NCBI GenBank assembly: GCA_027030245.1
Contig: JALVFE010000021.1
Location: 1-64,000, forward strand
Direction: 5' to 3'
Source of the DNA: Melioribacteraceae bacterium
GTDB taxonomy: Bacteria > Bacteroidota > Ignavibacteria > Ignavibacteriales > Melioribacteraceae
Length of the DNA: 64,000 nt
The notes below the pieces were generated by a model. It had not been told where the DNA came from. It saw only the letters and a program-made list of their open reading frames with translations, and searched no databases. Positions 9,419 through 28,591 of the stretch are shown here, one piece after another. Within the stretch, counting starts at the first letter, position 1; each line of letters opens with the position of its first letter. Both the position numbers and the translations under genes were made by a program.

Positions 9419-9428
9419 TTTATTGTCC

Positions 9429-12400: not shown

Positions 12401-13781
12401 TTATTATCAATTGTCCGAAAACTGCCGAGCGTGTCATTTTTATTGTGCTGTCATGCGAAATTTTATCTATCAGTTCTTGTTTTTCTTCACCGTGTAGTTT
12501 AAGTAATTCCGAACGTTTGGATGTAATTCGAAATGCTATAAATTCTACGATTATTACGGCACCGTCAATTATAATTCCGAAATCTATTGCCCCAAGGCTC
12601 ATAAGATTAGCGTCAACGCCGAAAATATACATCATTGATAAAGCAAATAATAAGCTCAATGGAATAACGGAAGCAATTACTAAACCTGATCGTAGGTTTC
12701 CGATTAATAATACAACGATAAAAATTACTATAAGGAAACCAAGAATTAAATTTTCCATAATTGTAAAAGTGGTTTTCCCGATTAAGTCGCTTCTATCGAG
12801 AAAGCCGTTGATTACAATACCTTCGGGTAAAGTTTTTTGAATTTCTTTGACTCGCTCTTTTACTCGTTCGATTGTGGCTTTGGAGTCTGCATCTTTAAGC
12901 ATCATTACTTGTCCGAGAACTTTTTCACCTTCACCGTTTGCCGTAATTGCTCCGAATCTGTTTGCATGACCGAATCTTACTTCTGCAACATCGCTAATAT
13001 AAATAGGGTGACCGTTTCTATTTGTTACAACAACATTTCCGATATCCTCAAGTGATTTTGCCAAACCTTCGCCTCTAATAAAATAGCTTTGGTTTGTTTT
13101 TTCTATGTAACTCCCGCCGGCTATACTGTTATTATTTTTTAATGCTGAAAATATTTCCGTGATGGAAATACCCATCGCCCTTAATCTTTCCGGATTTACA
13201 GCCACTTCGTATTGTTTTAAATAACCTCCCCAAGTATTTACTTCAACAACACCTTTTATTCCAGATAGTTGACGTTTTACAATCCAATCTTGTATAGTTC
13301 TCAAATCGGTTATCGAATATTTATCTTTGTGCGCCGAATCGGTATCAATTATATATTGATATATTTCACCTAAACCGGTTGAAATTGGACCCATTGAAGG
13401 AGTGCCGAAGCCGGCAGGAATTTTCTCTTGTGCGCTTTTAATTTTTTCCGCGATTAATTGACGCGGCAGATATGTGCCCATATCATCTTCGAACACAATA
13501 GTAACAACCGATAAACCGAATTTGGACACGGATCTGATTTCTATTACACCCGGTAAGTTTGCCATTTCAAGTTCGACAGGATAGGTTAGGTATTTTTCTA
13601 CGTCTTCAGTCGATAAATTTCTAGATGTTGTTATTACCTGCACTTGGTTATTTGTTACGTCAGGAACCGCACCGATTGGAATTCGTGTAATCGAATATAG
13701 GCCGAAAAAGACAATCGCTAATGTGAAAAGAATAATAATCAGCTTGTGAGTAAGACTATAGTTTACTAGTTTTTCTATCAT
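9429..13781 (-). CDS. czcA: CzcA-type heavy-metal RND pump fused to a TolC-like domain
   Basis: A 1450-residue fusion. Residues 1 to about 1035 are a complete HME-RND pump: helix 4 reads DFGIIIDGAVIIVEF, the Asp/Asp/Glu pattern of divalent-cation (Co/Zn/Cd/Ni) pumps, and the CusA methionine triad is absent. Next is a hydrophobic segment (FLWLLILFFPSFILGQ, about 1045-1060) resembling a retained signal peptide, then a TolC/CzcC-like helical domain of about 385 residues (from NLTLEKALEIAFENNRDIKA). A thirteenth membrane pass would put this domain on the periplasmic side. Such fusions are known in Bacteroidota. It is transcribed with czcB. Confidence 0.92.
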   Translation of the reverse strand: MIEKLVNYSLTHKLIIILFTLAIVFFGLYSITRIPIGAVPDVTNNQVQVITTSRNLSTEDVEKYLTYPVELEMANLPGVIEIRSVSKFGLSVVTIVFEDDMGTYLPRQLIAEKIKSAQEKIPAGFGTPSMGPISTGLGEIYQYIIDTDSAHKDKYSITDLRTIQDWIVKRQLSGIKGVVEVNTWGGYLKQYEVAVNPERLRAMGISITEIFSALKNNNSIAGGSYIEKTNQSYFIRGEGLAKSLEDIGNVVVTNRNGHPIYISDVAEVRFGHANRFGAITANGEGEKVLGQVMMLKDADSKATIERVKERVKEIQKTLPEGIVINGFLDRSDLIGKTTFTIMENLILGFLIVIFIVVLLIGNLRSGLVIASVIPLSLLFALSMMYIFGVDANLMSLGAIDFGIIIDGAVIIVEFIAFRITSKRSELLKLHGEEKQELIDKISHDSTIKMTRSAVFGQLIIIIVFIPILSLTGVEGKMFKPMALVFTFALIGTMILGFTYVPVISSLFLKPIDPNKKTISRRFMNFIMDLYKPSIDWALKNKKKVLATSIILLISTTVIFTKMGAEFVPTLDEGDFVIQPVLKTGTSLSKTIETLTKMEKIIKEFPEVKDVVSRIGAAEVPTDPMSMEESDVIITLKPKSEWTSAKTKDELADKIKEALSVLPGIDYEFTQPIEMRFNELITGVRADLAIKIFGEDLDILYRKAKEIEAAILNVEGASDITVEKTAGLPQMSVLYNRKKIAKYGLNVNDLNNIITMGFAGATAGTIFEGEKQFDLVVRFDSLNRQSIDDLKKATILLPSGQSLPLSEFAEIKFTKSPAKISRDETRRRIVIGVNVRNRDLGSVVEDVQKIINDKIHLPPGYSISYGGQFENLQNASARLMIAVPISLFLIFVMLHFAFGSFKDALMIFSAIPFAAVGGVLLLFIRGLPFSISAGVGFIALFGIAVLNGIVLIEHFKELKNEGVSDIRERIIMGTKDRLRPVLLTAGAAALGFLPMAVSTSAGAEVQRPLATVVIGGLISATLLTMIVLPVIYCYFDRKFTFPKMNPKTFLWLLILFFPSFILGQDNVNNSQPKNLTLEKALEIAFENNRDIKASGLMIKKTDYEIGNSFDFPKTDFYYNYDESNLGENNVPLKIWGINQTLKFPTYYYAHYNVLNEIAGAEKHKFQIKKTVLDKDISQTYYSIVYLNNIEKKYNYLDSLLTKFTEATNLRYKLGETSQLEKLTALMNKNEIEIKLLKTKEKIKAAYAKLKSLLQTKDDFLVNENELPQLIPKLPSLTNNAGLIYFKKLKNIAERKVSLAKNDLLPDINLGIFKSSNNALNAKTYFGFEIGLSVPILFFGKSSQIQASKVNRKIAELSYKSYEIKLNAKLNSLLHELNGYKTSIDYYKTTGKLLSEQIIKSATKSFENGEIDFFQYFQLLHNSISIEMNYLESLNKYNQTVLELDYLVLNEL

Positions 13782-13826
13782 TTTTAATTCCGTTATAATT
13801 TCACTTTGTAAATTTAGGTAAGGATA

Positions 13827-13866
13827 CTTAGGCGAGACTTAGAGAAATCTTAAAAAAATCTTAAAA
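13827..13866 (-). promoter_or_regulatory. Four direct repeats at 11-bp spacing upstream of czcA
   Basis: On the plus strand CTTAGGC, CTTAGAG, CTTAAAA and CTTAAAA start at 13827, 13838, 13849 and 13860, exactly 11 bp apart. They lie 46-85 bp upstream of the czcA start. OmpR/PhoB-family regulators typically bind direct repeats spaced by 11 bp, and such a regulator is encoded next door. A matching array precedes the regulator gene itself. Confidence 0.55.
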
Positions 13867-15228
13867 AATTATTTCCGCTTTCACTCCGTTATCGGAATGA
13901 TTATATAGTTTCACTTCAACATCCAATACTTCAGCGGCTTTTTTTACTATGGAAAGACCAAGTCCGCTGCCGGTAATATTTTTGTTTTTAAGAGCATCCG
14001 AACGGTAAAAGGGATTAAATACATTTTCAATATCCGATTCGGAAATACCTCTACCATAGTCAATTACTTCAATAATAACTTTATTGTTTTTAGATATTAC
14101 TTTTATTTTAACAGATCCGTTTTCGTAAGAATACTTCAATGCATTCGATACAATATTTTCTAAAATCATATCGGCATAATATGGATCGGTATAAATATCG
14201 GCTTTATTTTTATCTTCTATAGTTATTCTGATATTTTTATCTTCAATTAATTTTCTGTGTCTTGTGACTGCATTATCAATTAAAGAAATAGCCGGAAGTT
14301 TTTGTTTTCTGAGTTGTATGTTATTTTTATCGAACCTTGCCAAAAGTAACAGTTGGTCCACCCGGATTGACATATTATCTATTTCGGAAATACAATAATT
14401 AATTTTCTCTTTGTATTCTTCTTCTTTGCGCGGTTTTCTTACCAGCACTTCCAACGTACCTTTAATAACGGATAATGGAGTACGGAGTTCATGCGAGGCA
14501 TCGTTGGTAAATTGTTTTTCCCGTTCGAATGCTTTTTGTATTCTGTCCAATAATTCGTTAATTGATTTTGTAAGAGTAAAAAGTTCATCCTTAATTTCCG
14601 GCGGTTCAATACGTTCGTTCAAATTGTTTTGAGTAATACGATTAGTGGTTTCCGTAATGCTCATAATCGGTTTTATGCTTTTGCCGGCAAGGTAGCGTGT
14701 AACAAAAAATAACAAAACAAGAACGATGGGAAAGAGAACAAATAAAACCGTTCTTAGGTTTTTAACAACCAATATTGTTCCTTCTAACGAAACTGCTGTT
14801 AATAAATAACCCGTCTTTTCACCATTTTTGATTATAGGTATTTGTATTTGTCGGATAGCTTTTTCACTTAAGGTTGAATTAAAACATTCCATATTGGTTT
14901 TATCTTTACGGAACAGTAAAATCTGTTCTTTCAGATTTATGGATTTACCCATTACTTTGCCGTCCGGAGTAACCAATTGTAAAAAGAAGGGAATTACTTC
15001 TGCTTCTTTATGTTCTCTTTCTTCAGTAATGGCTTCGGCTTTGAAATATAAACTGTCGCTTTTTACAATCACGTCTTTAATATGCTTATTGGCTTCATAA
15101 ACCAAAGAAGAATCGAGGTTGGAGTAAACTGTTGTGGAAACAATAAAGTAAATTATTGTAAATACCACGGCAATTATCGATGCAGCAGCAGCTAAGTAAT
15201 AAAAAGCTATTCTATTTTTAAATGTCAT
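13861..15228 (-). CDS. Membrane sensor histidine kinase (CusS/CopS-like)
   Basis: A 455-residue kinase. Two membrane helices (about residues 10-32 and 160-180) enclose a periplasmic sensor domain; a HAMP linker follows. The dimerisation/phosphoacceptor box is DASHELRTPLSVIKG with His246. The ATPase domain shows the N box (ENIVSNALKYS), G1 (DYGRGIS) and G2 (GSGLGLSIVKKAAE). It probably phosphorylates the response regulator two bases upstream. The layout matches heavy-metal sensor kinases, and the genes on both sides are metal-efflux genes, so a periplasmic metal ion is the likely signal; no ligand site is evident. Confidence 0.9.
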   Translation of the reverse strand: MTFKNRIAFYYLAAAASIIAVVFTIIYFIVSTTVYSNLDSSLVYEANKHIKDVIVKSDSLYFKAEAITEEREHKEAEVIPFFLQLVTPDGKVMGKSINLKEQILLFRKDKTNMECFNSTLSEKAIRQIQIPIIKNGEKTGYLLTAVSLEGTILVVKNLRTVLFVLFPIVLVLLFFVTRYLAGKSIKPIMSITETTNRITQNNLNERIEPPEIKDELFTLTKSINELLDRIQKAFEREKQFTNDASHELRTPLSVIKGTLEVLVRKPRKEEEYKEKINYCISEIDNMSIRVDQLLLLARFDKNNIQLRKQKLPAISLIDNAVTRHRKLIEDKNIRITIEDKNKADIYTDPYYADMILENIVSNALKYSYENGSVKIKVISKNNKVIIEVIDYGRGISESDIENVFNPFYRSDALKNKNITGSGLGLSIVKKAAEVLDVEVKLYNHSDNGVKAEIIF

Positions 15229-15230
15229 GA

Positions 15231-15899
15231 TTAATCTTCCACGGCAATATAACCAACGCCACGAATTGTTTTAATATAAGCACCGGAATCTTTTAAACCG
15301 AGCTTGTTCCGTAAAGCATTAATATAAACATCAATTACACCGGTATTGTATTCAAAGTGAATATCCCAAACATTTTCAATTATTTGTGTTCTTCTGCAAA
15401 CTTTGCCTTTATTACGAATTAAATATTCCAGAAGAGAAAATTCTTTTTGTGTCAATACGATTTCTTCTCCGTTTTTTAACACTTGATGCGTTGTTAAATC
15501 CATTACAATATCGCCGAAAGTGAATCTATCATGTTCCCCCGATTTTGGTCTGAGCTGTACTCTAATCCTTTCCAAAAGTTCTTCAAAACTAAAGGGTTTT
15601 TTTATGTAATCGTTTGCGCCGGCTTGCAATCCGAAAATTGTATCTTGAACAGTATCCTTGGCTGTGAGGAAAATAATTGGAGTAAACTTATTTTCTTTTC
15701 TATACTCTCTACATACTTCTATACCGCTTAAACCTGGTAGCATCCAGTCAAGTAGTAAAATATCATAATCACCTGTAAGAGCCATTTCCAAACCCTGCTT
15801 ACCATCGAAAGCAATATCGACTGAATAAGCTTCTTCTTCCAATCCTTGTTTAACGAAATTGGCTATTCCCGCTTCATCTTCTATAATTAAAATTTTCAT
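15231..15899 (-). CDS. OmpR/PhoB-family response regulator (CusR/CopR-like)
   Basis: A 222-residue two-domain regulator. The receiver has the acidic pair near residues 7-8 (IIEDEAG), phospho-acceptor Asp51 (LLLDWMLPG), Thr in LTAKD and Lys in KKPFSFEEL. The C-terminal winged helix (from about residue 125) includes LTQKEFSLLEYLIRNKGKV and ends in TIRGVGYIAVED. It is encoded 2 bp before the kinase gene. Arrays of 11-bp repeats in front of this gene and of czcA suggest that it controls its own operon and the efflux pump. Confidence 0.92.
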   Translation of the reverse strand: MKILIIEDEAGIANFVKQGLEEEAYSVDIAFDGKQGLEMALTGDYDILLLDWMLPGLSGIEVCREYRKENKFTPIIFLTAKDTVQDTIFGLQAGANDYIKKPFSFEELLERIRVQLRPKSGEHDRFTFGDIVMDLTTHQVLKNGEEIVLTQKEFSLLEYLIRNKGKVCRRTQIIENVWDIHFEYNTGVIDVYINALRNKLGLKDSGAYIKTIRGVGYIAVED

Positions 15900-15921
15900 A
15901 AAACAAACCTAAGGTAAGAAT

Positions 15922-15961
15922 CTAAAGAATAACTAAATGATTTCTTAAAATTTGCTTAAAA
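15922..15961 (-). promoter_or_regulatory. 11-bp repeat array upstream of the response-regulator gene
   Basis: On the plus strand CTAAAGA, CTAAATG, CTTAAAA and CTTAAAA begin at 15922, 15933, 15944 and 15955, exactly 11 bp apart, 23-62 bp upstream of the regulator start. The last two units equal those upstream of czcA. This fits autoregulation by the OmpR-type protein. Confidence 0.5.
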
Positions 15962-16043
15962 TTTTCCGTATATAAAATAAAATTTTGATTGGTAACAAAA
16001 AAATGTGATGTGAAAATTAACGGATTTTAAAAGTAAAAGCAGA

Positions 16044-18269
16044 CTAGTAAATTTTTGTACGTTTCAATCTCAATGAATTGCTGATTACCGATACCGAACT
16101 CATCGACATTGCAAATGCTCCGATCATCGGATTAAGAAAACCAAACGCCGCAAAGGGAATACCTATTGAATTATAAACGAAAGCCCAAAACAAGTTTTGT
16201 TTTATTGTTTTGATAGTTTTTTGCGATAATTTTATTGCAGAAACCACACTCGTTAAATCACCTTTGATCAATGTAATGTCGGAGGATTCGATGGCAATAT
16301 CGGTTCCCGTACCGATTGCAATTCCGAGATCGGCTGCGGCAAGAGCGGGGGAGTCGTTTATGCCGTCGCCGACCATTGCAACAATTTCACCTCTACTTTG
16401 CAAGTTCTTTATTATTTGGGATTTGCCGCCAGGTAAAACTCCGGCGTAGTAATTATCTATTTCTATTGTTTTGGCTATGCTCTTTGCGGTAATTTCGTTA
16501 TCGCCGGTGACCATGAATATTTTAATCCCCAGTTCTTTTAATTTTTTGATTGCTTCGGGAGATGAAGATTTAACCGGATCGGCTATTCCAATTATACCGG
16601 CAAGTTGTCCGTTGATTCCGACGAATACAACGGATTTTCCGTCGGAGCTGATTTTTTCGTATAAATTTCTTTGCTTTTCGGTTTGAATGTTATTCTTATC
16701 GAGAAATGTTTTATTTCCGATTAACAATTCGTAGCCGTTAACTGCAGCGCGGATACCGTGACCCTCTATGTTTGTAAAGTCCGAAATAACACCGAAGTCT
16801 ATGTCTCTATCTTTACAATATCTTGTAATCGCTTCGGCTAGAGGATGCTCGGATCTGTTTTCCGCCGTGGCTAATAATTGCAGAAAAGTTTTACGGTCGA
16901 TGCCAAATATATGAACATCTGTAACAACCGGATTCCCTTCGGTAATTGTGCCGGTCTTATCGAACACTATTGCAGTAAGTTTGTGAGCTTTTTCAAGACT
17001 TTCACCGTTCTTTATTAATATTCCGTTTTGGGCTCCCAAACCGGTTCCAATCATTATTGCTGTGGGAGTTGCCAAGCCCATAGCGCAAGGGCATGCGATA
17101 ATTAATACTGCAACAAAATTAATTAATGCAATATTAAACGAAGATATTTCCGGAATAATCAACCAACCGATAAAAGTTAGAATTGAAATTCCAATAACAA
17201 CGGGAATAAAAACAGCAGCGACTTTATCCGCTATTTTTTGAATAGGAGCTTTACTGGCTTGAGCTTCTTCCACTAATTTAATTATTTGACCTAATACGGA
17301 GTTATTTCCCAAAGCGGTAACTTCGTAAACGAAAGTTCCGTTTTTATTAATGGTTCCGCCGATTACAGCGGAATTCATGCTTTTTTCCACAGGTAAACTT
17401 TCTCCTGTTAACATAGATTCGTCTACCGAAGAGTAACCTTCCAGAATTTTACCGTCAGCCGGAATTTTTTCTCCCGGTTTAACAATTATTCTATCACCGG
17501 TTTTCAAATCATTTAAATCAACTTTTTTTTCAATCCCGTTTTCGAGTACTGTTGCTTGTTTCGGTTTTAAGTCCAACAGTTTTTTTATTGCCGAATTTGT
17601 TTTGCTTTTAGCACGACTTTCCAAAACTTTGCCGAGTAGAATAAGTAAAATAATTACCGCTGCCGTATCGAAGTAAACATGTGAAACATTCGCACCGTTT
17701 ATCCAACCGGGAAAAAGTGTAATGATAGTGCTGTAAATAAATGCAGCTCCGGTACCGATTGCAACGAGAGAATCCATATTTACGGAAAAGTGTTTTAGGT
17801 TTGTCCAAAATGAAGAGTAAAATCTTTTACCGGGAATAAAAATTACCGGAGTGGTAAGTATGAGCAGAATTTTATTCGTATAATCATCGGAAAACGGCCA
17901 AAAGGTATTGAAGAAATCGAATCCTCTTAACATGCTGATAAGAAATACCGGTAGAGTTAAACTTAAAGCAAAGAGAAAATTATTTTTTAATTGTGCAAAA
18001 TGCTCATCCTGAAGCGAGTTGTCCTCGATGTTTTCAACAGTGTTGCTTTCAAAATTTCCTGTTTGTTTTGTATGCAACTTGTAACCGTATTTTTCTACAG
18101 CTTTTGCAGCTACGGACAAGTCAATTTCTTCATCACTTTCAATTGTTACTTTTTCCGTTGCCAAGTTAACTGAAACATTCTCAATACCTTCAATTTTTCT
18201 AAGCGATTTTTCCACCCGTGCTGCACAGCTTGCGCACGTCATTCCTTCAACCGGTAAATTATATTTCAT
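16044..18269 (-). CDS. copA: CopA, Cu(I)-translocating P1B-type ATPase
   Basis: A 741-residue copper ATPase that pumps Cu(I) out of the cytoplasm. One N-terminal HMA domain has MTCASC at residues 9-14. Eight membrane helices are predicted; the sixth carries Cys393-Pro-Cys395 ([12 protein letters not shown]). The phosphorylated residue is Asp437 ([10 protein letters not shown]); the TGES actuator motif and [20 protein letters not shown] hinge are present. The last helices retain the Cu signature residues (YNSIGIPFA, then [15 protein letters not shown]). It lies 27 bp downstream of a copZ-like chaperone gene on the same strand, so the chaperone and pump are co-transcribed. Confidence 0.95.
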
Positions 18270-18296
18270 ATTATTAATTAAATCTGTTAAAGAAAT

Positions 18297-18497
18297 TTAA
18301 TTCGCCACCTGGTAACCAGCTTCCGAAATAGCGTTAATTATTTGGTCTTCTGATATTTTGTTTTCGTCATATTCTACAACAGCAAAACCTATTTCCACTT
18401 CATAAGAATTTACACCTAAATCTTGCAACTCAATTTCAACCGCTTTTACACAGTGGTGACAAGTCATTCCGTTAATTTTGAATTCTTTTTTTACCAT
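18297..18497 (-). CDS. copZ: CopZ-like HMA copper chaperone
   Basis: A 66-residue single HMA domain with a ferredoxin-like fold and the metal loop MTCHHC at residues 10-15. The normal motif is MxCxxC; here His-His occupies the middle positions, as in some CopZ proteins. It delivers Cu(I) to CopA, whose gene follows. A strong GGAGG ribosome-binding site precedes the ATG. Confidence 0.9.
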   Translation of the reverse strand: MVKKEFKINGMTCHHCVKAVEIELQDLGVNSYEVEIGFAVVEYDENKISEDQIINAISEAGYQVAN

Positions 18498-18709: not shown

Positions 18710-19588
18710 ATGACACGATTTCAGCATAAATTATATATATCTTTTTTCGTAACCGTTACGGTACTAGTAACCGCTCTGTTAATTTATATTGGATATGATT
18801 ATTATTCTTTACCTATTGAAGAGCGCTTTTTTTCACCTTTACACAATCAACTTAAACCCGGTGGTTTTATTGGGCACGGTATCGGCATTATCGGCTCTTT
18901 GTTAATGTTAGTTGGTGTAGTAATTTATATGTTGAGAAAACGTGTAAAATATTTTCATAAATTCGGGGTTCTTAAACATTGGCTTGAGTTTCATATCTTT
19001 TTATGTACTTTAGGACCCATTCTAATTATTTTTCATACTTCATTTAAATTCGGTGGAATTGTCTCAATTAGTTTTTGGAGCATGATTGCCGTATTTCTAA
19101 GCGGAATAGTAGGTAGGTTTATCTATGTTCGTATTCCCAGAACTATTGAAGGAGTGGAATTGGATTTAAGACAGATTCAACAAATGAATGATGAGTATTC
19201 AATAAAATTACGAAATTTTCATAATGTAGATGAAGACGTATTACTGGAAATAGAAAGTATAGCAAACAGAAGATATAAGGGAACTCTCACAGTCGGAAAC
19301 ATTTTCTTAATAATAATAAAAGATTTTTTCGACAGAAAGAAAAATATGAACCGGATTATTAAGAAATTAAAAAACTCGGGAGTGACAAAGAAGAAAATAA
19401 TAGAAATAAAAAAACTCACAAAGCAAAAAATGCTTTTAAATAATAGAATCGAATATTTACAAGTATTACAAAGTATTTTTAAGTTCTGGCACATTGTTCA
19501 TCTGCCATTTGCTTTAATTATGCTAATCATAATGATTGTTCACATCGGTGTTGCTATTATATTCGGCTACGTCTGGATTTTTAATTAA
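18710..19588 (+). CDS. Integral membrane b-type cytochrome-like protein
   Basis: A protein of about 292 residues with an N-terminal anchor and four more predicted helices, interrupted by a charged cytoplasmic domain (about 145-245). Conserved-looking histidines sit inside or at the ends of helices: FIGHGIGIIG, HWLEFHIF, ILIIFHTSF, and near the C-terminus FWHIVHLPFALIMLIIMIVHI. The pairs are spaced as expected for ligands of two stacked b haems. As first gene of the cluster with an Fe-S/FAD protein and two giant c cytochromes, it probably moves electrons between quinol and the periplasm. The ATG at 18710 is preferred; a TTG lies three bases upstream. I cannot name the family. Confidence 0.7.
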   Translation: MTRFQHKLYISFFVTVTVLVTALLIYIGYDYYSLPIEERFFSPLHNQLKPGGFIGHGIGIIGSLLMLVGVVIYMLRKRVKYFHKFGVLKHWLEFHIFLCTLGPILIIFHTSFKFGGIVSISFWSMIAVFLSGIVGRFIYVRIPRTIEGVELDLRQIQQMNDEYSIKLRNFHNVDEDVLLEIESIANRRYKGTLTVGNIFLIIIKDFFDRKKNMNRIIKKLKNSGVTKKKIIEIKKLTKQKMLLNNRIEYLQVLQSIFKFWHIVHLPFALIMLIIMIVHIGVAIIFGYVWIFN

Positions 19589-19707
19589 AATTCAGTAAAA
19601 ATTTGTTTGGCCGCTAAACTTTTAATGAAACTGCCGATTAATATACAATAATAAGACATGTTGTATCATATTAGACTTATAAATAGGACATAATATCCAT
19701 AAATGAA

Positions 19708-19726
19708 CGAAAAACGCAGTTTTTCG
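19708..19726. other. Short hairpin in the gap before the Fe-S/FAD gene
   Basis: CGAAAAAC and GTTTTTCG pair around a three-base loop. It lies 42 bp upstream of the next gene and has no clear T-run, so it may attenuate rather than end transcription. The 180-bp gap otherwise shows nothing. Confidence 0.3.
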
Positions 19727-19768
19727 ATGGCACTTTTCTTGTTTTACATTTATAAATAGATTATAAAA

Positions 19769-21097
19769 ATGGAAGTCTTTCTAGAAAACGTTATTATATA
19801 TACATTAATCGCTATAATTATTGTTGGTATACTCTATTTATACCTCAAGACGCATAAATACGAATCCAAACAAACCATTGAGAAAATAAAGCGTGCAAAA
19901 GAATACGGTTTTCACGAACCTGTTTCTCTCCATCCGGTGATAAACGAAGATATTTGTATAGGCAGCGGTGCCTGCGTTGTCGCTTGTCCCGAAAAAGACA
20001 TTTTAGGATTAGTAAACGGGAAAGGTAAATTGATAAACGCATCGCACTGCGTTGGACACGGCGCATGTTTCCATGCTTGTCCGGTTGAAGCAATAACGCT
20101 TGTTATGGGAACGGAAAAAAGAGGAGTTGAACTTCCGCATGTAAGTCAAGATTATGAAACAAACGTTAAAGGAATTTACATTGCCGGCGAATTGGGTGGT
20201 ATGGGATTAATTAAAAATGCCATTGAACAAGGTAAAAAAGCAATGGATAACATAGCCGGTACAATTTCAAAAGGCGGAAACATCGAATACGATGTTGTTA
20301 TTATCGGTGCTGGACCGTCCGGTATTGCAGCGACTTTACGAGCAGCCGAAAAGAAATTGAAATTTGTTACGATCGAGCAAGATAATTTGGGCGGTACGGT
20401 ATATTCATTTCCGAGATCGAAAGTGGTGATGACTTCTCCCGTGGAAATTCCGCTTTATGGTAAAATCAAACTGTATGAAACTTCCAAAACCGAACTCATA
20501 AAGCTTTGGGAAGAAATACTTGACAAAAACAAAATTAAAATAAAGGAAAACGAAAAAGTCAATGAAATTGTAAAGTATGAAAATTATTTCAAAGTAATTA
20601 CCAGCAAAAGCGAATATTTTTCTAAGAAAGTATTACTGGCAATAGGAAGACGGGGAACGCCAAGAAAATTAGGAGTGCCCGGAGAAAATTCGGAAAAGGT
20701 TTATTACAGGCTTTTGGAACCTGAACAAATACACAATAAGAAAATTTTAGTTGTTGGCGGCGGGGATTCCGCGGTTGAATCGGCATTACTGTTGGCTGAA
20801 GAAGGCAACGAAGTAACTTTATCTTACCGCTCCGATTCTTTCAAAAGGATAAAACCGAAAAATCTTAAAAAAATTGAAGATGCCATTAAACTCAAATATG
20901 TAAACGTTCTTTATAATTCAACAGTGAAAGAAATTTTGGAAGATAAAGTTATTATTGACTTTCATAACGGAACATCATTGGAATTGGAAAACGATTTGGT
21001 ATATGTTTTTATCGGTGGGGAATTACCCAATAAGTTTTTGGAAAAAATCGGAATCAAGATAACCAAAAAATTCGGAGAGGCAATATTAAAACATTGA
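19769..21097 (+). CDS. Membrane-anchored Fe-S / FAD pyridine-nucleotide oxidoreductase
   Basis: A 442-residue protein. An N-terminal helix (IIYTLIAIIIVGILYLYL) anchors it. A ferredoxin-like segment follows with CIGSGACVVACP and CVGHGACFHACP; both lack the usual second Cys (Ser and His stand there). From about residue 175 a flavoprotein fold begins (VVIIGAGPSGIAATLRAAE) with a second nucleotide-binding GxGxxG-type site (ILVVGGGDSAVESALLLAEE), as in thioredoxin-reductase-like enzymes. It could pass electrons between NAD(P)H and the membrane cytochrome. It overlaps the following cytochrome gene by 4 bp. Confidence 0.82.
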   Translation: MEVFLENVIIYTLIAIIIVGILYLYLKTHKYESKQTIEKIKRAKEYGFHEPVSLHPVINEDICIGSGACVVACPEKDILGLVNGKGKLINASHCVGHGACFHACPVEAITLVMGTEKRGVELPHVSQDYETNVKGIYIAGELGGMGLIKNAIEQGKKAMDNIAGTISKGGNIEYDVVIIGAGPSGIAATLRAAEKKLKFVTIEQDNLGGTVYSFPRSKVVMTSPVEIPLYGKIKLYETSKTELIKLWEEILDKNKIKIKENEKVNEIVKYENYFKVITSKSEYFSKKVLLAIGRRGTPRKLGVPGENSEKVYYRLLEPEQIHNKKILVVGGGDSAVESALLLAEEGNEVTLSYRSDSFKRIKPKNLKKIEDAIKLKYVNVLYNSTVKEILEDKVIIDFHNGTSLELENDLVYVFIGGELPNKFLEKIGIKITKKFGEAILKH

Positions 21098-22677
21098 ACC
21101 GGATTCTTTTAATAACAGCAACGGCAATAATAATGCTCGGCAATATATATGCGCAAATATCTCCCGGCGAACTTTCTAAAGCCCACGCCGATTTGGAAGG
21201 TATAAGCAATTGTACGAAATGCCACACATTGGGCAAAAGTTTGGATAATGCAAAATGCCTTGATTGCCATAAAGAAATTGCCGGATTAATCAATCTCAAC
21301 CGCGGTTATCATTCCAATAAAAAAGTGAAAAACGAAAATTGCTGGAAATGTCACGGCGACCACTTCGGAAGAAATTTTCAAATTATAAGATTCGACGAAA
21401 ACAAATTTAATCACAATGAAGCTTTATACGAATTAGCCGGTAAACATAAAGAGCTTGAATGCAACAAATGCCATAAGAAGGATTTTATTTCTGATAGCAA
21501 ACTAAAACAAAAGGCAAAAACATTTTTAGGATTAACCGGAGAATGCGCGGATTGCCACGAAGACGTTCACCGGAATACGTTAGGTAAAGATTGCGCAAGT
21601 TGCCATAACGAAGAAAAATTCAAACCGGCGGTAAAATTCAATCACGATGAAGCAAAATTCAAATTGACCGGCGCGCACAAAAATGTAGGATGTGAAAAAT
21701 GCCACGCAATAGAAAATATTGACGGTAAAGAATTTCAAAGGTTCACGGATATTGAATTTTCGTCTTGTAAATCATGTCATACCGATGTTCACAAAGGGAA
21801 GTTCGGCAAAAAGTGCGCTTCGTGTCACACTACAAAATCTTTTACGGATGTAAAAAATCTAAAATCATTTAATCATAGTAAAACAGCATTTCCGTTGATT
21901 GGAAAACACAAAAGGGTAAAATGCAGTTCGTGTCATAAAGGCAGTTTGAGTTTCAAACCGAAATTTAAGTATTGTTACAATTGCCATTCGGATTTTCACG
22001 ATGGCGAATTTGAAAACAGCGGAATTTTAAGGGATTGCAAAGAATGCCATAACGAAAACGGATTTTCACCATCGTTATTTTCTATGGAAAGGCATGCGGA
22101 ACTGAAATTCAAACTTACCGGCGCGCATACGGCAATACCTTGCACGGATTGTCATTACCAAGGGAATAAGTGGAAGTTCAGGATAAGCGGTGATAATTGT
22201 ATCGAGTGCCATGAAGATTTTCATTCATCCGTTCGTAACTCAAAATTCTTTACCGGTATTAATTGTGAAAGCTGCCACTCGACCGGCTCTTGGCAAAGTG
22301 TAACATTCGATCATAACAAAACAAACTTTGAGCTTTTGGGCAAACATAAAGAGGAAAAGTGCGAATCGTGCCATTTTAAATCAGAGGAAGGAAAGATAGT
22401 TCAACATTTTAATGATTTAGAAACAAACTGCTCCGGCTGCCACGAAGATATACATGCCGGGCAATTCAATGAAGGCGATTCAGAAACTTGTACAACCTGT
22501 CATACCTTTGATAATTGGGAACCGACTCTTTTTGATCATAACAATACCGGATTTGCGTTGGAAGGAGCACACGCTAAGGTTGAATGTAATCAGTGTCACT
22601 ATGCTGTATCAAAAGGAAAGGTGCAATACATTCTTTACAAATTAGAGAGGACGAGATGCATCGATTGTCATTCTTAA
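21094..22677 (+). CDS. Multihaem c-type cytochrome with 20 CXXCH motifs
   Basis: A 527-residue exported protein (signal MNRILLITATAIIMLGNIYAQ). I count 20 CXXCH haem-attachment motifs, roughly one per 26 residues, in a repeating pattern of FNH..KFKLTGAH followed by C..CH, like the doubled-CXXCH/cytochrome c3 families. Extra histidines in the GAHxxxxC blocks are likely distal ligands. The start is TTG, overlapping the previous stop as TTGA; the next Met would cut into the signal peptide. It is an electron wire in the periplasm between the membrane proteins and the barrel. Confidence 0.92.
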   Translation: MNRILLITATAIIMLGNIYAQISPGELSKAHADLEGISNCTKCHTLGKSLDNAKCLDCHKEIAGLINLNRGYHSNKKVKNENCWKCHGDHFGRNFQIIRFDENKFNHNEALYELAGKHKELECNKCHKKDFISDSKLKQKAKTFLGLTGECADCHEDVHRNTLGKDCASCHNEEKFKPAVKFNHDEAKFKLTGAHKNVGCEKCHAIENIDGKEFQRFTDIEFSSCKSCHTDVHKGKFGKKCASCHTTKSFTDVKNLKSFNHSKTAFPLIGKHKRVKCSSCHKGSLSFKPKFKYCYNCHSDFHDGEFENSGILRDCKECHNENGFSPSLFSMERHAELKFKLTGAHTAIPCTDCHYQGNKWKFRISGDNCIECHEDFHSSVRNSKFFTGINCESCHSTGSWQSVTFDHNKTNFELLGKHKEEKCESCHFKSEEGKIVQHFNDLETNCSGCHEDIHAGQFNEGDSETCTTCHTFDNWEPTLFDHNNTGFALEGAHAKVECNQCHYAVSKGKVQYILYKLERTRCIDCHS

Positions 22678-25034
22678 TTTTGTTTTTGTTATACGGACTT
22701 GTTTTTGCCCAGTCGCCGCACGGTGATAATTTTAACTACGAATGCTCGGAATGCCACACTACAGATACATGGAAAATAAATCTTAAAAAGCTCAATTTCG
22801 ATCATAGTAAAACAGGTTTCGAATTAGCCGGGCAACATGCAAATCTCGATTGCCAAACTTGTCATACTTCGTTAGACTTTGTAACAACCAAAAACAAATG
22901 TTTCGATTGCCATAACGATGTTCATCAAAATACGTTGGATAAAAATTGCCAGCTTTGTCATAACTCCAAAAGTTGGCTTGTGGAAAACATTAACGAGATT
23001 CATAACAGAAGCAGATTTCCTTTATTGGGTGCGCATATCACAGCCGACTGCCAACAATGTCATAAAACTATTAATAATTTAATTTTTAAGGAATTAGGTG
23101 TTGAGTGTATTGATTGTCATTTACAAGATTATAACAGTACGCAAAACCCAAATCATGTTTTGGCAAATTTTTCCAAAGACTGCGTTGAGTGTCATTCGAC
23201 AAACGATAAACAGTGGAGGCAAGGAACCTTCAACCATGATTTTTTCCCGTTAACGTTGGGGCATAAAATCAGCAATTGTTTTGAATGTCACAATACACAG
23301 AGTTTTACTGGGCTGGATCAAACTTGCTATACGTGTCATCAAAGTGATTTCAGTAATACTAAAGACCCCAATCACGTAAGCTCCGGATTTTCAAAAGATT
23401 GCGTTCAATGCCACACAACAAACCCGGGCTGGAAACCGGCGAATTTTAAAATACATGATCAATTTTTTGTATTAGACGGAGCTCACAAAAAAATTGAAAA
23501 CAGTTGTGCACAATGTCATTCCAACGGATACACAAATACACCTAAAGAATGTATCGGTTGTCACGAATCGAATTATAATTCAACAACAAATCCCGATCAT
23601 AAATCGACCGGATTCGGAACTGATTGCGAATCTTGTCATTCAACAGTAGGGTGGACACCGGCGACATTTGACCACGATAATCAATTTTTCCCTATTTATT
23701 CCGGTAAACACAATAACGAATGGGATAACTGTTCGGATTGCCATACGAATCAAAGCGATTACTCGGTTTTCTCTTGTATAACGTGTCATGAACATTCCCA
23801 ATCCAAAATGGACGACGAACATAAAGAAGTGCAAGGTTACGCTTACGAAAGTCAAGCATGTTTAACTTGTCACCCGCAAGGTGATAAAGAAGGTGCGATT
23901 GATCATTCGAAAACTGCATTCCCGTTAACGGGTTTGCATGTAACTGCGGATTGTGCACAATGTCATGCAAACGGTTATTCCGGAACACCGACGGAATGTT
24001 ATGCATGTCATGAAGACAAATACACTAATACTGCGGAACCGAAACACGGAGAAGCGGGATTATCGCATCAATGCGAAACTTGTCATACAACTTCCGTATG
24101 GAAACCTTCGACATTCGATCATAACACTACGGGATTTGAATTAATCGGAGGGCATTCGTTACCGCAATGTTCGAGTTGCCACAAAGGCAGTACGGAAAAC
24201 ACATCGCCATTGTGTTACAGTTGTCATCAAGATCAGTATGCGAATGCTGAAAATCATGTATCACAGAATTATCCAACGACTTGTGAACAATGTCATAACA
24301 CGACAGATTGGAAGGATGCTGATTTCGATCACGCAAATACCAATTTCCCGTTAACCGGAGCACATGTAAACACCGATTGCGCTCAATGCCATACGAACGG
24401 ATACAGCGGAACTCCGACTGATTGCAATTCGTGTCACAATGCCGATTTTAAACAAACGACAAATCCTGATCATCAGAATTTAGGTTTATCTACAAACTGC
24501 GAGACATGTCACACAACCAATCCGGGCTGGAAACCTGCAGAATTTCCGGTACACAATGATTATTACGTTTTGGAAGGAGCGCATGCATCGATATCGAACG
24601 ATTGTGCAACGTGTCATAACGGGGATTACAACAATACACCGAACACATGTTACGGATGTCATCAATCAGATTATGAAAGCACAAACGATCCGCCGCATCA
24701 ATCGAACGGATTTTCAACCGATTGCGAATCGTGTCATACCCAAACGGCATGGAAACCTTCAACGTTCGATCACGATAATCAATATTTCCCGATATATTCG
24801 GGCAAACACAAGAATAAGTGGGATAACTGTTCGGATTGCCATACGAATCAAAGCGATTACTCGGTTTTCTCTTGTATAACGTGTCATGAACATTCCCAAT
24901 CCAAAATGGATGACAAACATAAAGATGTTTCCGGATATGTTTATGACAGTAATGCTTGTTATGATTGTCACCCGAACGGTAAAGAAGACGGTGGAGTTCC
25001 CAATCCTTTACACATAAAAAGGATGAGATACTGA
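22656..25034 (+). CDS. Giant multihaem c-type cytochrome with 31 CXXCH motifs
   Basis: A 792-residue exported cytochrome (signal MHRLSFLILFLLYGLVFAQ). I count 31 CXXCH motifs. The repeat pattern FDHxxTxFxLxGxHxxxxCxxCH is as in the preceding gene, so the two are related by descent. Residues about 350-385 and 716-751 are encoded by identical DNA, marking an internal duplication of 366 codons. I chose ATG 22656, which has AGAGG upstream and overlaps the previous gene by 22 bp; an open frame extends to 22593 but has no signal sequence. The gene ends TGATG, coupled to the barrel gene. It probably carries electrons to or across the outer membrane. Confidence 0.92.
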   Translation: MHRLSFLILFLLYGLVFAQSPHGDNFNYECSECHTTDTWKINLKKLNFDHSKTGFELAGQHANLDCQTCHTSLDFVTTKNKCFDCHNDVHQNTLDKNCQLCHNSKSWLVENINEIHNRSRFPLLGAHITADCQQCHKTINNLIFKELGVECIDCHLQDYNSTQNPNHVLANFSKDCVECHSTNDKQWRQGTFNHDFFPLTLGHKISNCFECHNTQSFTGLDQTCYTCHQSDFSNTKDPNHVSSGFSKDCVQCHTTNPGWKPANFKIHDQFFVLDGAHKKIENSCAQCHSNGYTNTPKECIGCHESNYNSTTNPDHKSTGFGTDCESCHSTVGWTPATFDHDNQFFPIYSGKHNNEWDNCSDCHTNQSDYSVFSCITCHEHSQSKMDDEHKEVQGYAYESQACLTCHPQGDKEGAIDHSKTAFPLTGLHVTADCAQCHANGYSGTPTECYACHEDKYTNTAEPKHGEAGLSHQCETCHTTSVWKPSTFDHNTTGFELIGGHSLPQCSSCHKGSTENTSPLCYSCHQDQYANAENHVSQNYPTTCEQCHNTTDWKDADFDHANTNFPLTGAHVNTDCAQCHTNGYSGTPTDCNSCHNADFKQTTNPDHQNLGLSTNCETCHTTNPGWKPAEFPVHNDYYVLEGAHASISNDCATCHNGDYNNTPNTCYGCHQSDYESTNDPPHQSNGFSTDCESCHTQTAWKPSTFDHDNQYFPIYSGKHKNKWDNCSDCHTNQSDYSVFSCITCHEHSQSKMDDKHKDVSGYVYDSNACYDCHPNGKEDGGVPNPLHIKRMRY
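23721..23812 (+). repeat. Copy 1 of an exact 92-bp intragenic direct repeat
   Basis: Identical to 24819-24910, offset 1098 bp (366 codons, in frame). It encodes WDNCSDCHTNQSDYSVFSC and the next haem motif. Third-position identity over 92 bp implies recent duplication or gene conversion. Confidence 0.9.
24819..24910 (+). repeat. Copy 2 of an exact 92-bp intragenic direct repeat
   Basis: Identical to 23721-23812; the flanking sequence is similar but diverged, so the exact stretch sits inside an older tandem duplication. Confidence 0.9.
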
Positions 25035-26641
25035 TGAAAAAACTTATTTTACTTTGTCTGTTTATCGGTATTTCTCTGCATGGACAAAGTTCGGAAAAAA
25101 TCAAAATAGAAGGGAAGATCAGTTACATATCTTCGCAATATTACTACATTGCTTTCCCAAAATCGGATGGTATTAAAAAAGGCGATACCCTGTATATTAA
25201 AGTCCGGAAAAAACTGATACCTAAATTTATTGTGGAGAGAACATCTTCGCATTCATGCGCCGCAAAGTTGCTGGGACGAAAAGTAAAAAAAGGCAGAACT
25301 GTTTTTGCTTTCGTAACTCCAAAAATAAAATCTGTTCCTGAAACCAAAGAGAAAAAATTATTTGCGAATAATCCAAGGGAAGAGGAAAATTCAAAACACA
25401 AACACTCAAAAGCAAAGAAATTAATTAGTAGAAGAAAAAGCATTGGCGGGAAATACAGTCTATCCGGATATTCCAACTTTTCGAACATTGCCGGACAAAC
25501 CGATTATCAATACTGGCGTCATTCATTTTCATATTACAACAACAGAATTTCCGGAAGTAATTTTTCGTTTTCTTCTTACATAACGTTTAGATACAGAAGC
25601 GACAAGTGGAATTATGTAAGCAGTCATATCGGCGAAGCTCTGAAGGTTTATGATTTATCGTTAACTTATAGATTCGACAGCATAACAAAACTGGTAGCCG
25701 GAAGGAAAATCAACCGGTATCTCTCGAGTTTGGGAGCCGTAGACGGAGTACAGTTCGAAACGATTCGTAAAGGATTCAGACTTGGCGGCGTTCTGGGTTC
25801 GCGACCAAATAATTCGGATTACGGTTACAACTTCAAATTATTGGAAATGGGCGTTTATGTCAGCCGGGACGATTCGGTCGGAACGGGAAAGATGACCAAT
25901 ACTTTATCGATTCTTCAACAAATGAACGATTACACTACAGACAGAAGATTTTTATATTTCCAGCATTCAAGTAATTTTATCAAACACGTTTATTTTTTCT
26001 TTTCAACGGAGATTGATTTTTTCAAACATTATCACGGAAACACTTCACACGATCCTTATTTGACTAATATATTTGTTTCTCTCCGTGTTTCTCCGGCAAA
26101 GTGGATAAGTTTAACAACATCGTACGACGCAAGAAAGAATATAATTTATTACGAAACGTATAAAAGCTTTATTGACAGATTGATAAACAATGCAATGCGT
26201 CAAGGATTCAGAGTGCGGGTTAATTTACGACCGGTGAAGTATGTTTTCGCATCGGTATATTCCGGATACAGATTCCGTAAAGACGACAAAAGACCTTCGA
26301 AAAATCTTGGTGTATCGATTACTCATTCGAAAATTCCGTTTCTTAACTTATCGGCAAATTTGAATTATTTCAATATTTCATCAAATTATATTAGCGGGGT
26401 AATATACGGCGTCAGAATTTCCAAAAATTTATTCCGCGGAACGGTTACGCTTACAACCGGTTACAAAAATATTAATTATGATTTTCTGAATTCTCAATCG
26501 AAATTGGTAAAAGATGCTTTCTTATTCGATTTGTCATTGCAATTGGCAAGGAAATTATCTCTCTCTTTAAGTTACGAAGGCACTTTCGAACATAAAGATT
26601 CTTATTCGAATTTATATTTTAACATAACGCAGAGGTTTTAA
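25034..26641 (+). CDS. Outer-membrane beta-barrel protein of the cytochrome cluster
   Basis: A 535-residue protein with a signal peptide (LILLCLFIGISLHGQ). Residues about 20-105 form a small beta-rich domain (GIKKGDTLYIKVRKK); a Lys-rich linker follows; from about 145 to the end, alternating polar/aromatic strands occur (for example LSGYSNFSNIAG, ISLTTSYDARKN) and the protein finishes with Phe (YFNITQRF), the usual last residue of outer-membrane barrels. No CXXCH motif. Its start overlaps the 31-haem cytochrome stop (TGATG). By analogy with porin-cytochrome conduits it may hold a cytochrome in the outer membrane, but it does not resemble MtrB/PioB at the level I can see. Confidence 0.75.
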   Translation: MKKLILLCLFIGISLHGQSSEKIKIEGKISYISSQYYYIAFPKSDGIKKGDTLYIKVRKKLIPKFIVERTSSHSCAAKLLGRKVKKGRTVFAFVTPKIKSVPETKEKKLFANNPREEENSKHKHSKAKKLISRRKSIGGKYSLSGYSNFSNIAGQTDYQYWRHSFSYYNNRISGSNFSFSSYITFRYRSDKWNYVSSHIGEALKVYDLSLTYRFDSITKLVAGRKINRYLSSLGAVDGVQFETIRKGFRLGGVLGSRPNNSDYGYNFKLLEMGVYVSRDDSVGTGKMTNTLSILQQMNDYTTDRRFLYFQHSSNFIKHVYFFFSTEIDFFKHYHGNTSHDPYLTNIFVSLRVSPAKWISLTTSYDARKNIIYYETYKSFIDRLINNAMRQGFRVRVNLRPVKYVFASVYSGYRFRKDDKRPSKNLGVSITHSKIPFLNLSANLNYFNISSNYISGVIYGVRISKNLFRGTVTLTTGYKNINYDFLNSQSKLVKDAFLFDLSLQLARKLSLSLSYEGTFEHKDSYSNLYFNITQRF

Positions 26642-27216
26642 GTAACGGCGTCTATCGATTTGCGTGGAATTTGCACATTCTTTTTGAACTCGCTGGCGGT
26701 TAATCCCGTAACCTGTTTGAATTGTCTCGATAAATGTTGAACCGAGCTGTAGCCGAGTCTGTAAGCAATTTCGCTGAGAGTCAGTTCGCCGTATTTTAAC
26801 AGCTCTTTTGCCTTTTCGATTTTTTGCAGAATTATGTAATGCTCGATTGTTATTCCTTCTGTTTTCGAGAACAAAGAACTTAAATAATTATAATCTTTAT
26901 TAAACGTTTTGCTGATGTGTTTTGAAAAATTTAATTTTTCCAGGTCTTCATCTTTGTATTGTTGAATTAAGCTTATGATTTCGGTTTTAATCGAGTCTAT
27001 TAATTTGGCTTTCGAATCTTCAATTAATTCAAAACCTTCTTTCAGCAAAACTTCTTTGATTTTAGCATAATCGGGGAGATTATCTTTATGCCGTATTTTG
27101 GCATGACCCAATTCAACATGGAGAACTTCGTAACCGAGTTTTTCAAGCTCTTCGCGCACAACTTTAACGCAGCGCGGGCAAACCATATTTTTAATGTGAA
27201 TAACGGTATCGGGCAT
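26638..27216 (-). CDS. HMA domain-AraC regulator fusion
   Basis: A 192-residue protein. Residues 1-68 are a heavy-metal-associated domain with MVCPRC as metal loop; residues about 85-185 form two helix-turn-helix units of the AraC type (LTLSEIAYRLGYSSVQHLSRQFKQVTGLTASEFKK). Fusing a Cu-chaperone-like domain to a DNA-binding domain suggests a transcription factor that reads cytoplasmic copper directly. Similar short fusions occur in Bacteroidota near copper genes. It converges on the barrel gene, with stops overlapping by 4 bp. Targets are unknown; the copZ-copA promoter is the obvious candidate. Confidence 0.82.
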   Translation of the reverse strand: MPDTVIHIKNMVCPRCVKVVREELEKLGYEVLHVELGHAKIRHKDNLPDYAKIKEVLLKEGFELIEDSKAKLIDSIKTEIISLIQQYKDEDLEKLNFSKHISKTFNKDYNYLSSLFSKTEGITIEHYIILQKIEKAKELLKYGELTLSEIAYRLGYSSVQHLSRQFKQVTGLTASEFKKNVQIPRKSIDAVT

Positions 27217-27295: not shown

Positions 27296-27943
27296 ATGAA
27301 AATAATAACGATGTTTTGGGTATTGTTTATATCTCTTTTTGTTTTCGGATGCAGCAGTACATCACCATTGTTGAAACCTGAGGAGTCAGGATTGAACCAA
27401 CGCGCGCCGGAAAGCTTTACGGTTGTTTTTGTTACTACAAAAGGTGATATAGAAATTAATGTGCGTAGAGATTATTCGCCGCTCGGCGTAGACCGGTTCT
27501 ATTATTTGGCAAAAAATCATTACTATGACGGGAACAGATTTTTCAGGGTAGTTCCGGGATTTGTTGTTCAGTGGGGAATAAACGGTAATCCCGAAATAAA
27601 TAAAGTTTGGGAGAATAAAGGTATCCCGGATGAGCCGGTAAAACTCAGTAATAAGAAAGGTACAATGGCTTTTGCGCGAGGCGGACCCAATACACGATCG
27701 AACCAATTGTTTATTAATCTAAATGATAATTTAAGATTGGATACAACGAATTTTATGGGCGTAAAAGGATTTCCGGCTTTCGGAATAGTTGTAAAGGGAA
27801 TGGATGTAGTGGAATCGATTTATCCGGGTTACAAAGAATTGCCGGATCAAGATTCGATTCAAACTAAAGGGAATGTTTATTTGGATAAAAATTTTCCCGA
27901 ACTTGATTATATTATAACAACAAAAATATTGAACGAAAAATAA
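27296..27943 (+). CDS. Cyclophilin-type peptidyl-prolyl isomerase lipoprotein
   Basis: A 215-residue cyclophilin. The N-terminus is a lipoprotein signal (LFISLFVFGCSSTSP). The cyclophilin core starts near residue 45 (VVFVTTKGDIEINVRRDYSPLGVDRFYYLAKNHYYDG) and keeps the catalytic segment FFRVVPGFVVQWG (Arg-Phe-Gln pattern) and the GTMAFARGGPNTRSNQLFIN block. It catalyses cis/trans isomerisation of prolyl bonds during folding of envelope proteins. A TPR protein gene follows after 27 bp and is probably co-transcribed. Confidence 0.92.
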   Translation: MKIITMFWVLFISLFVFGCSSTSPLLKPEESGLNQRAPESFTVVFVTTKGDIEINVRRDYSPLGVDRFYYLAKNHYYDGNRFFRVVPGFVVQWGINGNPEINKVWENKGIPDEPVKLSNKKGTMAFARGGPNTRSNQLFINLNDNLRLDTTNFMGVKGFPAFGIVVKGMDVVESIYPGYKELPDQDSIQTKGNVYLDKNFPELDYIITTKILNEK

Positions 27944-27970: not shown

Positions 27971-28591
27971 ATGAAAATAAAATTGGTTTATCTCTACATT
28001 GCTTTGTTTGCAGCTGTTCTGATTGCTTTGGTTATTTACGATAGTCAAAGTACAAACGACACAACCGGAGCTGTTGCCCCGCCGGATATCGAAAAAAAGG
28101 AAATGCCGCAAGACGAAATACATAAAGGGCTTCAGAATCCTGTATCCGAACAACCTTCCAAGGCAAATGTATTGGAAACGGTGAAGCAAAGGATGAAAAA
28201 GTTAGAAGAAGAAATCCGGAATAATCCGGAAGATACGGTTAGAATTAGGGAATATGCTAATTTTCTGCTTGCCGCACACAAACCGGATAAAGCTTTGAAA
28301 TACTACAAAATGATTTTGGCTAAAAATCCAAACAGAATTGACATACTTCTTTCCGTTACGTCCATTTATTTTAACAAAGGCGATTATAAAAACGCGGAGG
28401 AAACAACGCGTAAAATTCTAAAGGAGGATAAAAACAATTTGGAAGGGAAATATAATTTGGGCGTAATTTACGCAGTAACAGGAAGGAAAGAAGAAGCAAG
28501 TAAAATATGGAATGGGATTATCGAAAAGCATCCCGGTACTAATGTTGCGGGTATGGCTAAAAGCGCTCTGGCAAAATTAAATGAAAAGTAG
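27971..28591 (+). CDS. Membrane-anchored TPR protein
   Basis: A 206-residue protein with an N-terminal membrane helix (LVYLYIALFAAVLIALVIY), a Pro/Glu-rich linker, and three TPR-like helical pairs (about 75-200; ANFLLAAHKPDKALKYYKMI, SIYFNKGDYKNAEETTRKIL, GVIYAVTGRKEEASKIWNGI). TPRs mediate protein binding; no catalytic domain is present. The gene has a GGGAAAT ribosome-binding region and follows the cyclophilin gene, so it may be an envelope assembly partner. Confidence 0.85.
   Translation: MKIKLVYLYIALFAAVLIALVIYDSQSTNDTTGAVAPPDIEKKEMPQDEIHKGLQNPVSEQPSKANVLETVKQRMKKLEEEIRNNPEDTVRIREYANFLLAAHKPDKALKYYKMILAKNPNRIDILLSVTSIYFNKGDYKNAEETTRKILKEDKNNLEGKYNLGVIYAVTGRKEEASKIWNGIIEKHPGTNVAGMAKSALAKLNEK

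Follow-up and report, generated by a model that had tools for sequence, protein, structure and literature searches.

Five adjoining genes in a 64,000-nt stretch of DNA from a Melioribacteraceae bacterium (hereafter the window) raise the question of whether they encode a conduit that carries electrons across the whole cell envelope and, if so, whether this conduit is of a type of its own. We therefore followed the genes from their layout in the window to their distribution among relatives, their predicted proteins and the known systems that they resemble.

Layout of the locus

The five genes, named here g1 to g5, occupy positions 18710-26641, as had been claimed by a sequence-only reading of this DNA, and all lie on the plus strand. 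g1 (18710..19588) encodes a predicted inner-membrane dihaem b-type cytochrome, of the kind described as the inner-membrane protein (IMP) of porin-cytochrome complex 3 (PCC3), and g2 (19769..21097) an N-terminally anchored protein with two three-Cys Fer4 motifs and a YpdA/TrxR-like FAD-NAD(P) domain. Two secreted c-type cytochromes follow, g3 (21094..22677), of the c7/c3 type with 20 haems and presumed to span the periplasm, and g4 (22656..25034), with 31 haems and presumed to thread the barrel and extend outside the cell. The last gene, g5 (25034..26641), encodes a predicted outer-membrane beta-barrel, whose strands number about 22 and are preceded by an N-terminal periplasmic beta domain. The haem numbers of the earlier reading were exact, the CXXCH motif being counted 20 times in g3 and 31 times in g4, and no CXXCH was found outside g3 and g4 in window ORFs of at least 60 aa. 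At the DNA level, the CXXCH pattern occurs 287 times in the whole source genome versus 196 times for a reversed control, and 51 occurrences are in the g3-g4 locus.

The tight coupling claimed for the genes held for three of the junctions. That is, g2 and g3 overlap by 4 bases, g4 and g5 by 1 base, and g3 and g4 by 22 bases on the assumption that g4 begins at ATG 22656, downstream of GAGAGGACGAG, which is most likely the start rather than the listed GTG 22593. The g1-g2 junction, however, is a 180-base gap without coupling. In five relatives (L041, L042, L047, L049 and L050) this gap is filled by a gene for a TPR protein, whose homologue in the window is a candidate accessory gene encoding a TM-anchored TPR protein (27971..28591, plus strand) with a weak CcmH/CycH TPR match. 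A second accessory candidate, a cyclophilin-type peptidyl-prolyl isomerase (27296..27943, plus strand), is found at the same place in the close relative L031 only.

The surroundings of the locus contain genes for metal handling. A gene for an AraC-type regulator on the minus strand (26638-27216), whose N-terminal stretch is like a heavy-metal-associated (HMA) domain (MVCPRC), overlaps the end of g5 by 4 bases. An apparent copper/metal efflux set (8270-18497, minus strand) comprises a CopA-type ATPase (16044-18269), a small HMA protein (18297-18497), two-component genes (13861-15899) and RND pump genes (8270-13781). A functional link between the conduit and these copper genes was considered and rejected, because this neighbourhood is shared with L031 only.

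Conservation and distribution of the five genes

We searched relatives for the same five-gene arrangement and found all five genes in 77 of the 113 loci carrying g2, most of the other loci being cut by contig ends. The genes occur in two orders, g1-g2-g3-g4-g5 and, in a divergent subtype, g1-g3-g4-g5-g2. In the host family, the barrel is present in 35 of 79 genomes, a g4-like cytochrome always precedes it where flanking sequence exists, and the five genes stand in the same order in all those of twenty longer loci that are not cut by contig ends. A scan of GTDB with g2 gave at least 552 relatives, the best 80 of which are from Bacteroidota or unassigned and mostly have the five genes. In an even draw of 396 genomes from the phylum, the barrel was found in 31, g2 in 39 and both in 30; that is, a phylum search seeded with the barrel recovered g2 in 30 of 31 barrel genomes, the exception matching a barrel fragment only. 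The presence of g2 in all complete loci is partly by construction, many loci having been found through g2.

Among the 77 complete loci, the protein distances of the five genes correlate with r of 0.68-0.91 (0.75 for g4-g5 and 0.91 for g2-g5), the maximum over 200 permutations being at most 0.29. As far as sequences can tell, these covarying distances show joint inheritance, although vertical descent alone would also raise the correlation. These data bear on the reading in which g5 is an ordinary porin gene that happens to adjoin unrelated cytochromes. A chance neighbour is conceivable for a barrel without a family match, but barrel and cytochromes stay together across family, order and phylum and in two gene orders, and the g4-g5 and g2-g5 correlations point the same way; such conservation contradicts a chance association, which we regard as extremely improbable. 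The earlier expectation that the barrel would prove to be conserved with the cytochromes was thus confirmed. Judged by gene order and distances, the five genes are one co-inherited unit across much of Bacteroidota.

Cultured carriers include Maribellus luteus (L074), Hanstruepera marina (L108), Emticicia aquatica (L110), Phaeodactylibacter xiamenensis (L117), Lacihabitans (L123) and Emticicia oligotrophica (L133). In the last of these, the whole conduit is encoded on the 100-kb plasmid pEMTOL02, with a gene for a 1028-aa CcsA-type cytochrome c assembly protein directly upstream. A search of plasmids with g5 returned Emticicia alone.

The inner-membrane cytochrome and flavoprotein

No significant Pfam match was obtained for g1. 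Its hydrophobic segments are consistent with five helices, and the motif WX3HX13H occurs twice (W91/H95/H109 and W260/H264/H278), together with SGXXG at S131 (S131-G132-x-x-G135). These residues are invariant in all 19 aligned homologues, and all of the motifs are present in 98 of 107 g1 ORFs. The two His pairs, each 14 residues apart and predicted in helices 3 and 5, have the haem-holding geometry of a dihaem b cytochrome.

In g2, a single hydrophobic anchor precedes the Fe-S, FAD and NAD(P) domains (Pfam Fer4_10, 6.7e-11; Pyr_redox_3, 3.5e-49). The flavoprotein domain is nearest to the bacillithiol reductase YpdA/Bdr, but g2 is not a disulfide reductase, since all six of its cysteines sit in the Fer4 motifs. 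The FAD motif TNVKGIYIAGE, which is C-terminal in the usual members, stands ahead of GxGxxG in g2. When this segment was moved to the end, the new end aligned with the C-terminal motif of YpdA, and search scores rose slightly, from 108.4 to 112.9 and from 103.3 to 105.0 bits. This suggests a circular permutation of the flavoprotein domain. Ser/His substitutions in the Fer4 motifs, invariant in the g2 alignment, were considered as a signature and given no weight, only 67 of 113 g2 ORFs in the wider set matching both patterns.

The same re-ordered flavoprotein domain is found in an 851-aa protein encoded elsewhere in the source genome (L134 4421-6976; C21:390420-392975), where it is fused to a membrane polyferredoxin (NapH-like) domain. 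Taken together, g1 and g2 resemble a split ferric-reductase/NOX unit. Small clusters without a barrel but with the same inner-membrane logic are present on plasmids of Bradyrhizobium (L131) and Methylophaga (L132); they combine a short multihaem cytochrome with a 2Fe-2S protein and either a membrane protein like g1 or an 'iron reductase'.

Two cytochromes, one of fixed and one of variable length

Both g3 and g4 are c7/c3-type cytochromes, in which Pfam Cytochrome_C7 is found in 6-8 stretches. These stretches, the spacing of the modules and module duplicates at the DNA level show that triheme domains are repeated as in c7-type polymers, and the g3 profile matches the GSU1996 chain 3ov0 (4.8e-7). 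The DmsE/MtrA family model matches g3 weakly (3.7e-12, far below cut-off) and g4 weakly as well, the g4 core having 10 haems. No lipoprotein signal or surface anchor was recognised in either protein. The source genome encodes cytochrome c assembly proteins, and a further region with a multihaem cytochrome gene, containing about 11 CXXCH motifs, lies at C16:313825-315483.

Of the complete g3 genes, 75 encode 20 haems and 20 encode 23 (a few genomes being counted twice), with near-constant spacing among relatives. Apart from those in CXXCH, g3 has exactly 20 His residues with at least 90% conservation, that is one per haem, and exactly 10 extra His are conserved in the 10-haem core of g4, again one per haem (10/10). 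All of these haems can therefore be bis-His. Bis-His ligation is the usual state of electron-transfer haems. No haem among them is marked as a likely catalytic centre, and with one extra conserved His for each haem the two parts look like wires rather than enzymes. They have about 25 residues per haem.

In the window, g4 consists of a constant N-terminal core of 10 haems (22656-23414) followed by seven three-haem modules. The haem spacing of the core (36,16,16,34,19,25,32,16,25) is nearly constant, and among the 74 distinct complete g4s with this core, 72 carry 10+3n haems, 64 of them by CXXCH alone and eight when a CX3CH or CX4CH motif standing where a haem site is expected is included. In the two that do not fit (L068 and L127), a second fragment comes after the gene, which looks frame-broken. 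The count left out some g4s with altered core spacing, and these are not all 10+3n as they stand (e.g. 38 haems in L135, 21 in L088 and 29 in L089). A minimal 10-haem g4 (n=0), proposed from L135, L137 and L138, was rejected, the haem spacing differing from that of the core. Under the 10+3n rule, g4 ranges from 13 to 82 haems, and members of the genus g8 have g4s with 34, 40 and 46.

In several loci, modules within one g4 gene are 95-100% identical in DNA, indicating that g4 changes its length by module duplication, recently in places. Tandem Repeats Finder reported no array within the window, where the g4 modules have diverged. The single cytochrome with 82 CXXCH motifs is encoded by the cultured isolate Phaeodactylibacter xiamenensis KD52 (L117 13188-19307); two of its blocks, haems 26-34 and 41-49, are 100% identical in DNA, and mis-assembly is possible. 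In a Saprospiraceae MAG (L095 14507-21320), an open frame with at least 90 CXXCH motifs continues beyond the end of the sequence analysed there.

Haem counts of up to 82 are far above what is needed to cross a membrane. They could suit a charge store, in which the bis-His haems would form a periplasmic or surface capacitor buffering redox swings and the barrel would merely export or anchor g4, and such roles have already been proposed for proteins of this kind. A capacitor does not need g5, however, whereas a through-conduit requires both a barrel and a transmembrane b cytochrome, and these two are co-inherited with g3 and g4. As a replacement for the conduit, charge storage thus seems improbable, though the two are compatible rather than exclusive.

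The outer-membrane barrel

No match to g5 was found in Pfam or NCBIfam (MtrB_PioB included) at E<=1, nor by sequence in the PDB, so that the earlier remark that the barrel is unlike MtrB was borne out at the sequence level. An AlphaFold2 model built from 18 sequences has a mean pLDDT of 82. It starts with a small beta domain (residues 23-94), which a disordered linker connects to 22 strands; these occupy residues 137 to 534, reach the C terminus and were counted from the DSSP line of this model. For the first 16 haems of g4, by comparison, AlphaFold2 gave a pLDDT of 38. Foldseek placed g5 among generic large barrels (ushers and TonB-dependent receptors, e.g. FimD, PfeA and FecA) with low TM-scores, which support the class of fold only, and MtrB was absent among the 50 matches listed.

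Comparison with known systems

The closest counterpart is PCC3, a porin-cytochrome complex predicted in Proteobacteria, Fe(II) oxidisers among them (He et al. 2017, PMC5566968), and, as of 2025, still functionally untested (PMC12442390). Its IMP has five helices, about 300 aa, two WX3HX13H motifs and SGXXG, and its haem numbers have a median of 21 for the periplasmic cytochrome and of 34, up to 85, for the extracellular one, in addition to a barrel (PMC5566968). The present set has the same parts: g1 is a five-helix IMP with the same motifs (19/19 aligned, 98/107 ORFs), a periplasmic cytochrome of about 21 haems (g3, 20/23) is paired with a large and variable extracellular one (g4, 13-82) at their presumed locations, and a non-MtrB outer-membrane barrel adjoins them.

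There are differences as well. PCC3 comprises four genes (porin, two cytochromes and IMP) with no flavoprotein described, whereas g2 is added here; an additional subunit does not by itself exclude membership. PCC3 porins are predicted to have up to 42 transmembrane regions as opposed to about 22 strands in g5, and PCC3 has been reported from Alpha-, Beta- and Gammaproteobacteria, whereas the present set is found in Bacteroidota. The extracellular PCC3 cytochromes of Gallionellaceae have 10-18, 26, 28, 29, 33 and 35 haems, numbers that do not follow the 10+3n of g4 (PMC10734462). A tblastn search of plasmids found small Fe-S/IMP/short-cytochrome clusters only, and no PCC3. We therefore describe the set as a PCC3-like variant rather than a proven member, because the match is one of composition and g1 motifs, the barrel and cytochromes having been compared by description.

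Other systems share single traits with the set. MtrCAB and MtoAB likewise pass the outer membrane by a barrel with a multihaem cytochrome, but g5 has no MtrB_PioB match, the haems number 20 + 31 instead of 10 + 10, and the present set has an inner-membrane module of its own in place of CymA. The Geobacter 'nanowire' c7 polymers GSU1996 (12 haems) and GSU2210 (27 haems; PMC10138318) also string three-haem domains head to tail in one chain, as the match of g3 to 3ov0 illustrates. They are described as stand-alone periplasmic proteins, whereas g3 and g4 are in an operon with a barrel and an inner-membrane module; moreover, GSU1996 has one His-Met haem per domain, whereas a conserved extra His accompanies every haem in g3 and in the core of g4.

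In the same phylum, large cytochromes by a barrel are known from two sets of uncharacterised clusters, the Bacteroidetes_1 bioanode cluster, with a predicted barrel and six cytochromes among seven genes (PMC8258643), and OmbB-like clusters of Ignavibacteria with 40- and 33-motif cytochromes (PMC7399161). The former is described with another gene content, and neither a 10+3n rule nor a distribution nor an inner-membrane flavoprotein has been reported for either. Across the openly licensed literature, cytochromes of Bacteroidota and Ignavibacteria by barrels are mentioned, but the present five-gene set was not found as a system. The suggestion that this might be a distinct conduit type holds insofar as the set is not a characterised complex in the searchable papers; its composition and g1 motifs match the predicted PCC3 class, which makes it a variant of that class and not a class of its own. 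What is new is the Bacteroidota lineage, the flavoprotein g2, the 22-strand barrel and the 10+3n rule.

Proposed electron path

We consider it probable that the five genes encode an envelope-spanning, PCC3-like porin-cytochrome electron conduit in a Bacteroidota form. For its operation, we infer the contacts between partners, the loading of cofactors, the residence of a cytochrome in the barrel, the topology, the direction and the acceptor. Cytoplasmic NAD(P)H (or ferredoxin) would supply electrons to g2 through its FAD and Fe-S clusters; these electrons would then traverse the inner membrane over the two b haems of g1 and the periplasm along the 20-haem g3. From there they would pass to the 10-haem core of g4, which would sit inside the g5 barrel, and then through the three-haem modules to an extracellular acceptor. 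Candidate acceptors are minerals containing Fe(III) or Mn(IV), humics, electrodes and other cells. The reach of g4 would be set by module duplication.

The contrast between a fixed g3 (20/23 haems) and a g4 free to vary by threes (13-82) fits a fixed gap on one side and open space on the other. The 12 haems of GSU1996 cover 12 nm (PMC10138318), and at this scale g3 would measure about 20 nm, near the width of the periplasm, and g4 from 13 to 82 nm.

The membrane potential speaks for outward flow, and so does the finding that Ignavibacteria rich in large multihaem cytochromes were abundant on poised anodes (PMC7399161). Some points count against this picture. Neither cytochrome has a recognised signal or anchor for the cell surface, as noted above. 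Many carriers are aerobic (Emticicia, Phaeodactylibacter) and have no obvious need for metal respiration. Direct oxidation of NAD(P)H would leave out the quinone pool, so that this step would yield no conserved energy; for the similar IMP of PCC3, a quinone link has been proposed (PMC5566968). The source genome encodes haem-copper oxidases, so oxygen respiration is likely available to the source organism too.

The same conduit could also run inward, taking up extracellular electrons, e.g. from Fe(II) oxidation, and delivering them to quinone, NAD(P)+ or ferredoxin. PCC3 is found in Fe(II) oxidisers, with a role in oxidation proposed (PMC5566968). Multihaem conduits can work both ways, and the oxidases of the source genome and the several cultured aerobes among the carriers would agree with uptake. 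However, transfer from a high-potential donor of the Fe(II) type to NAD(P)+ would be strongly uphill and opposed by the membrane potential, and neither Melioribacteraceae nor most carriers are known to be lithotrophs. We consider inward flow unlikely and prefer the outward conduit.

Significance

In its boldest form, which we put forward tentatively, the conduit would be a length-adjustable single-chain wire of about 80 nm at most (1 nm per haem, as in GSU1996), running through a 22-strand barrel and fed with NAD(P)H by a split ferric-reductase-like unit, and would be an overlooked electron outlet or means of exchange in many aerobic and anaerobic Bacteroidota. The natural g4 series, from 13 to 82 haems by whole modules, offers a ready set for relating conduction to wire length, and g2 as a constant companion gives a concrete prediction for the electron source that is absent from the PCC3 model. 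If the conduit reading is true, extracellular electron transfer would be encoded by a standard set of five genes in Bacteroidota, a phylum not usually searched for it, including in the cultivable aerobes Emticicia, Phaeodactylibacter, Hanstruepera and Maribellus.
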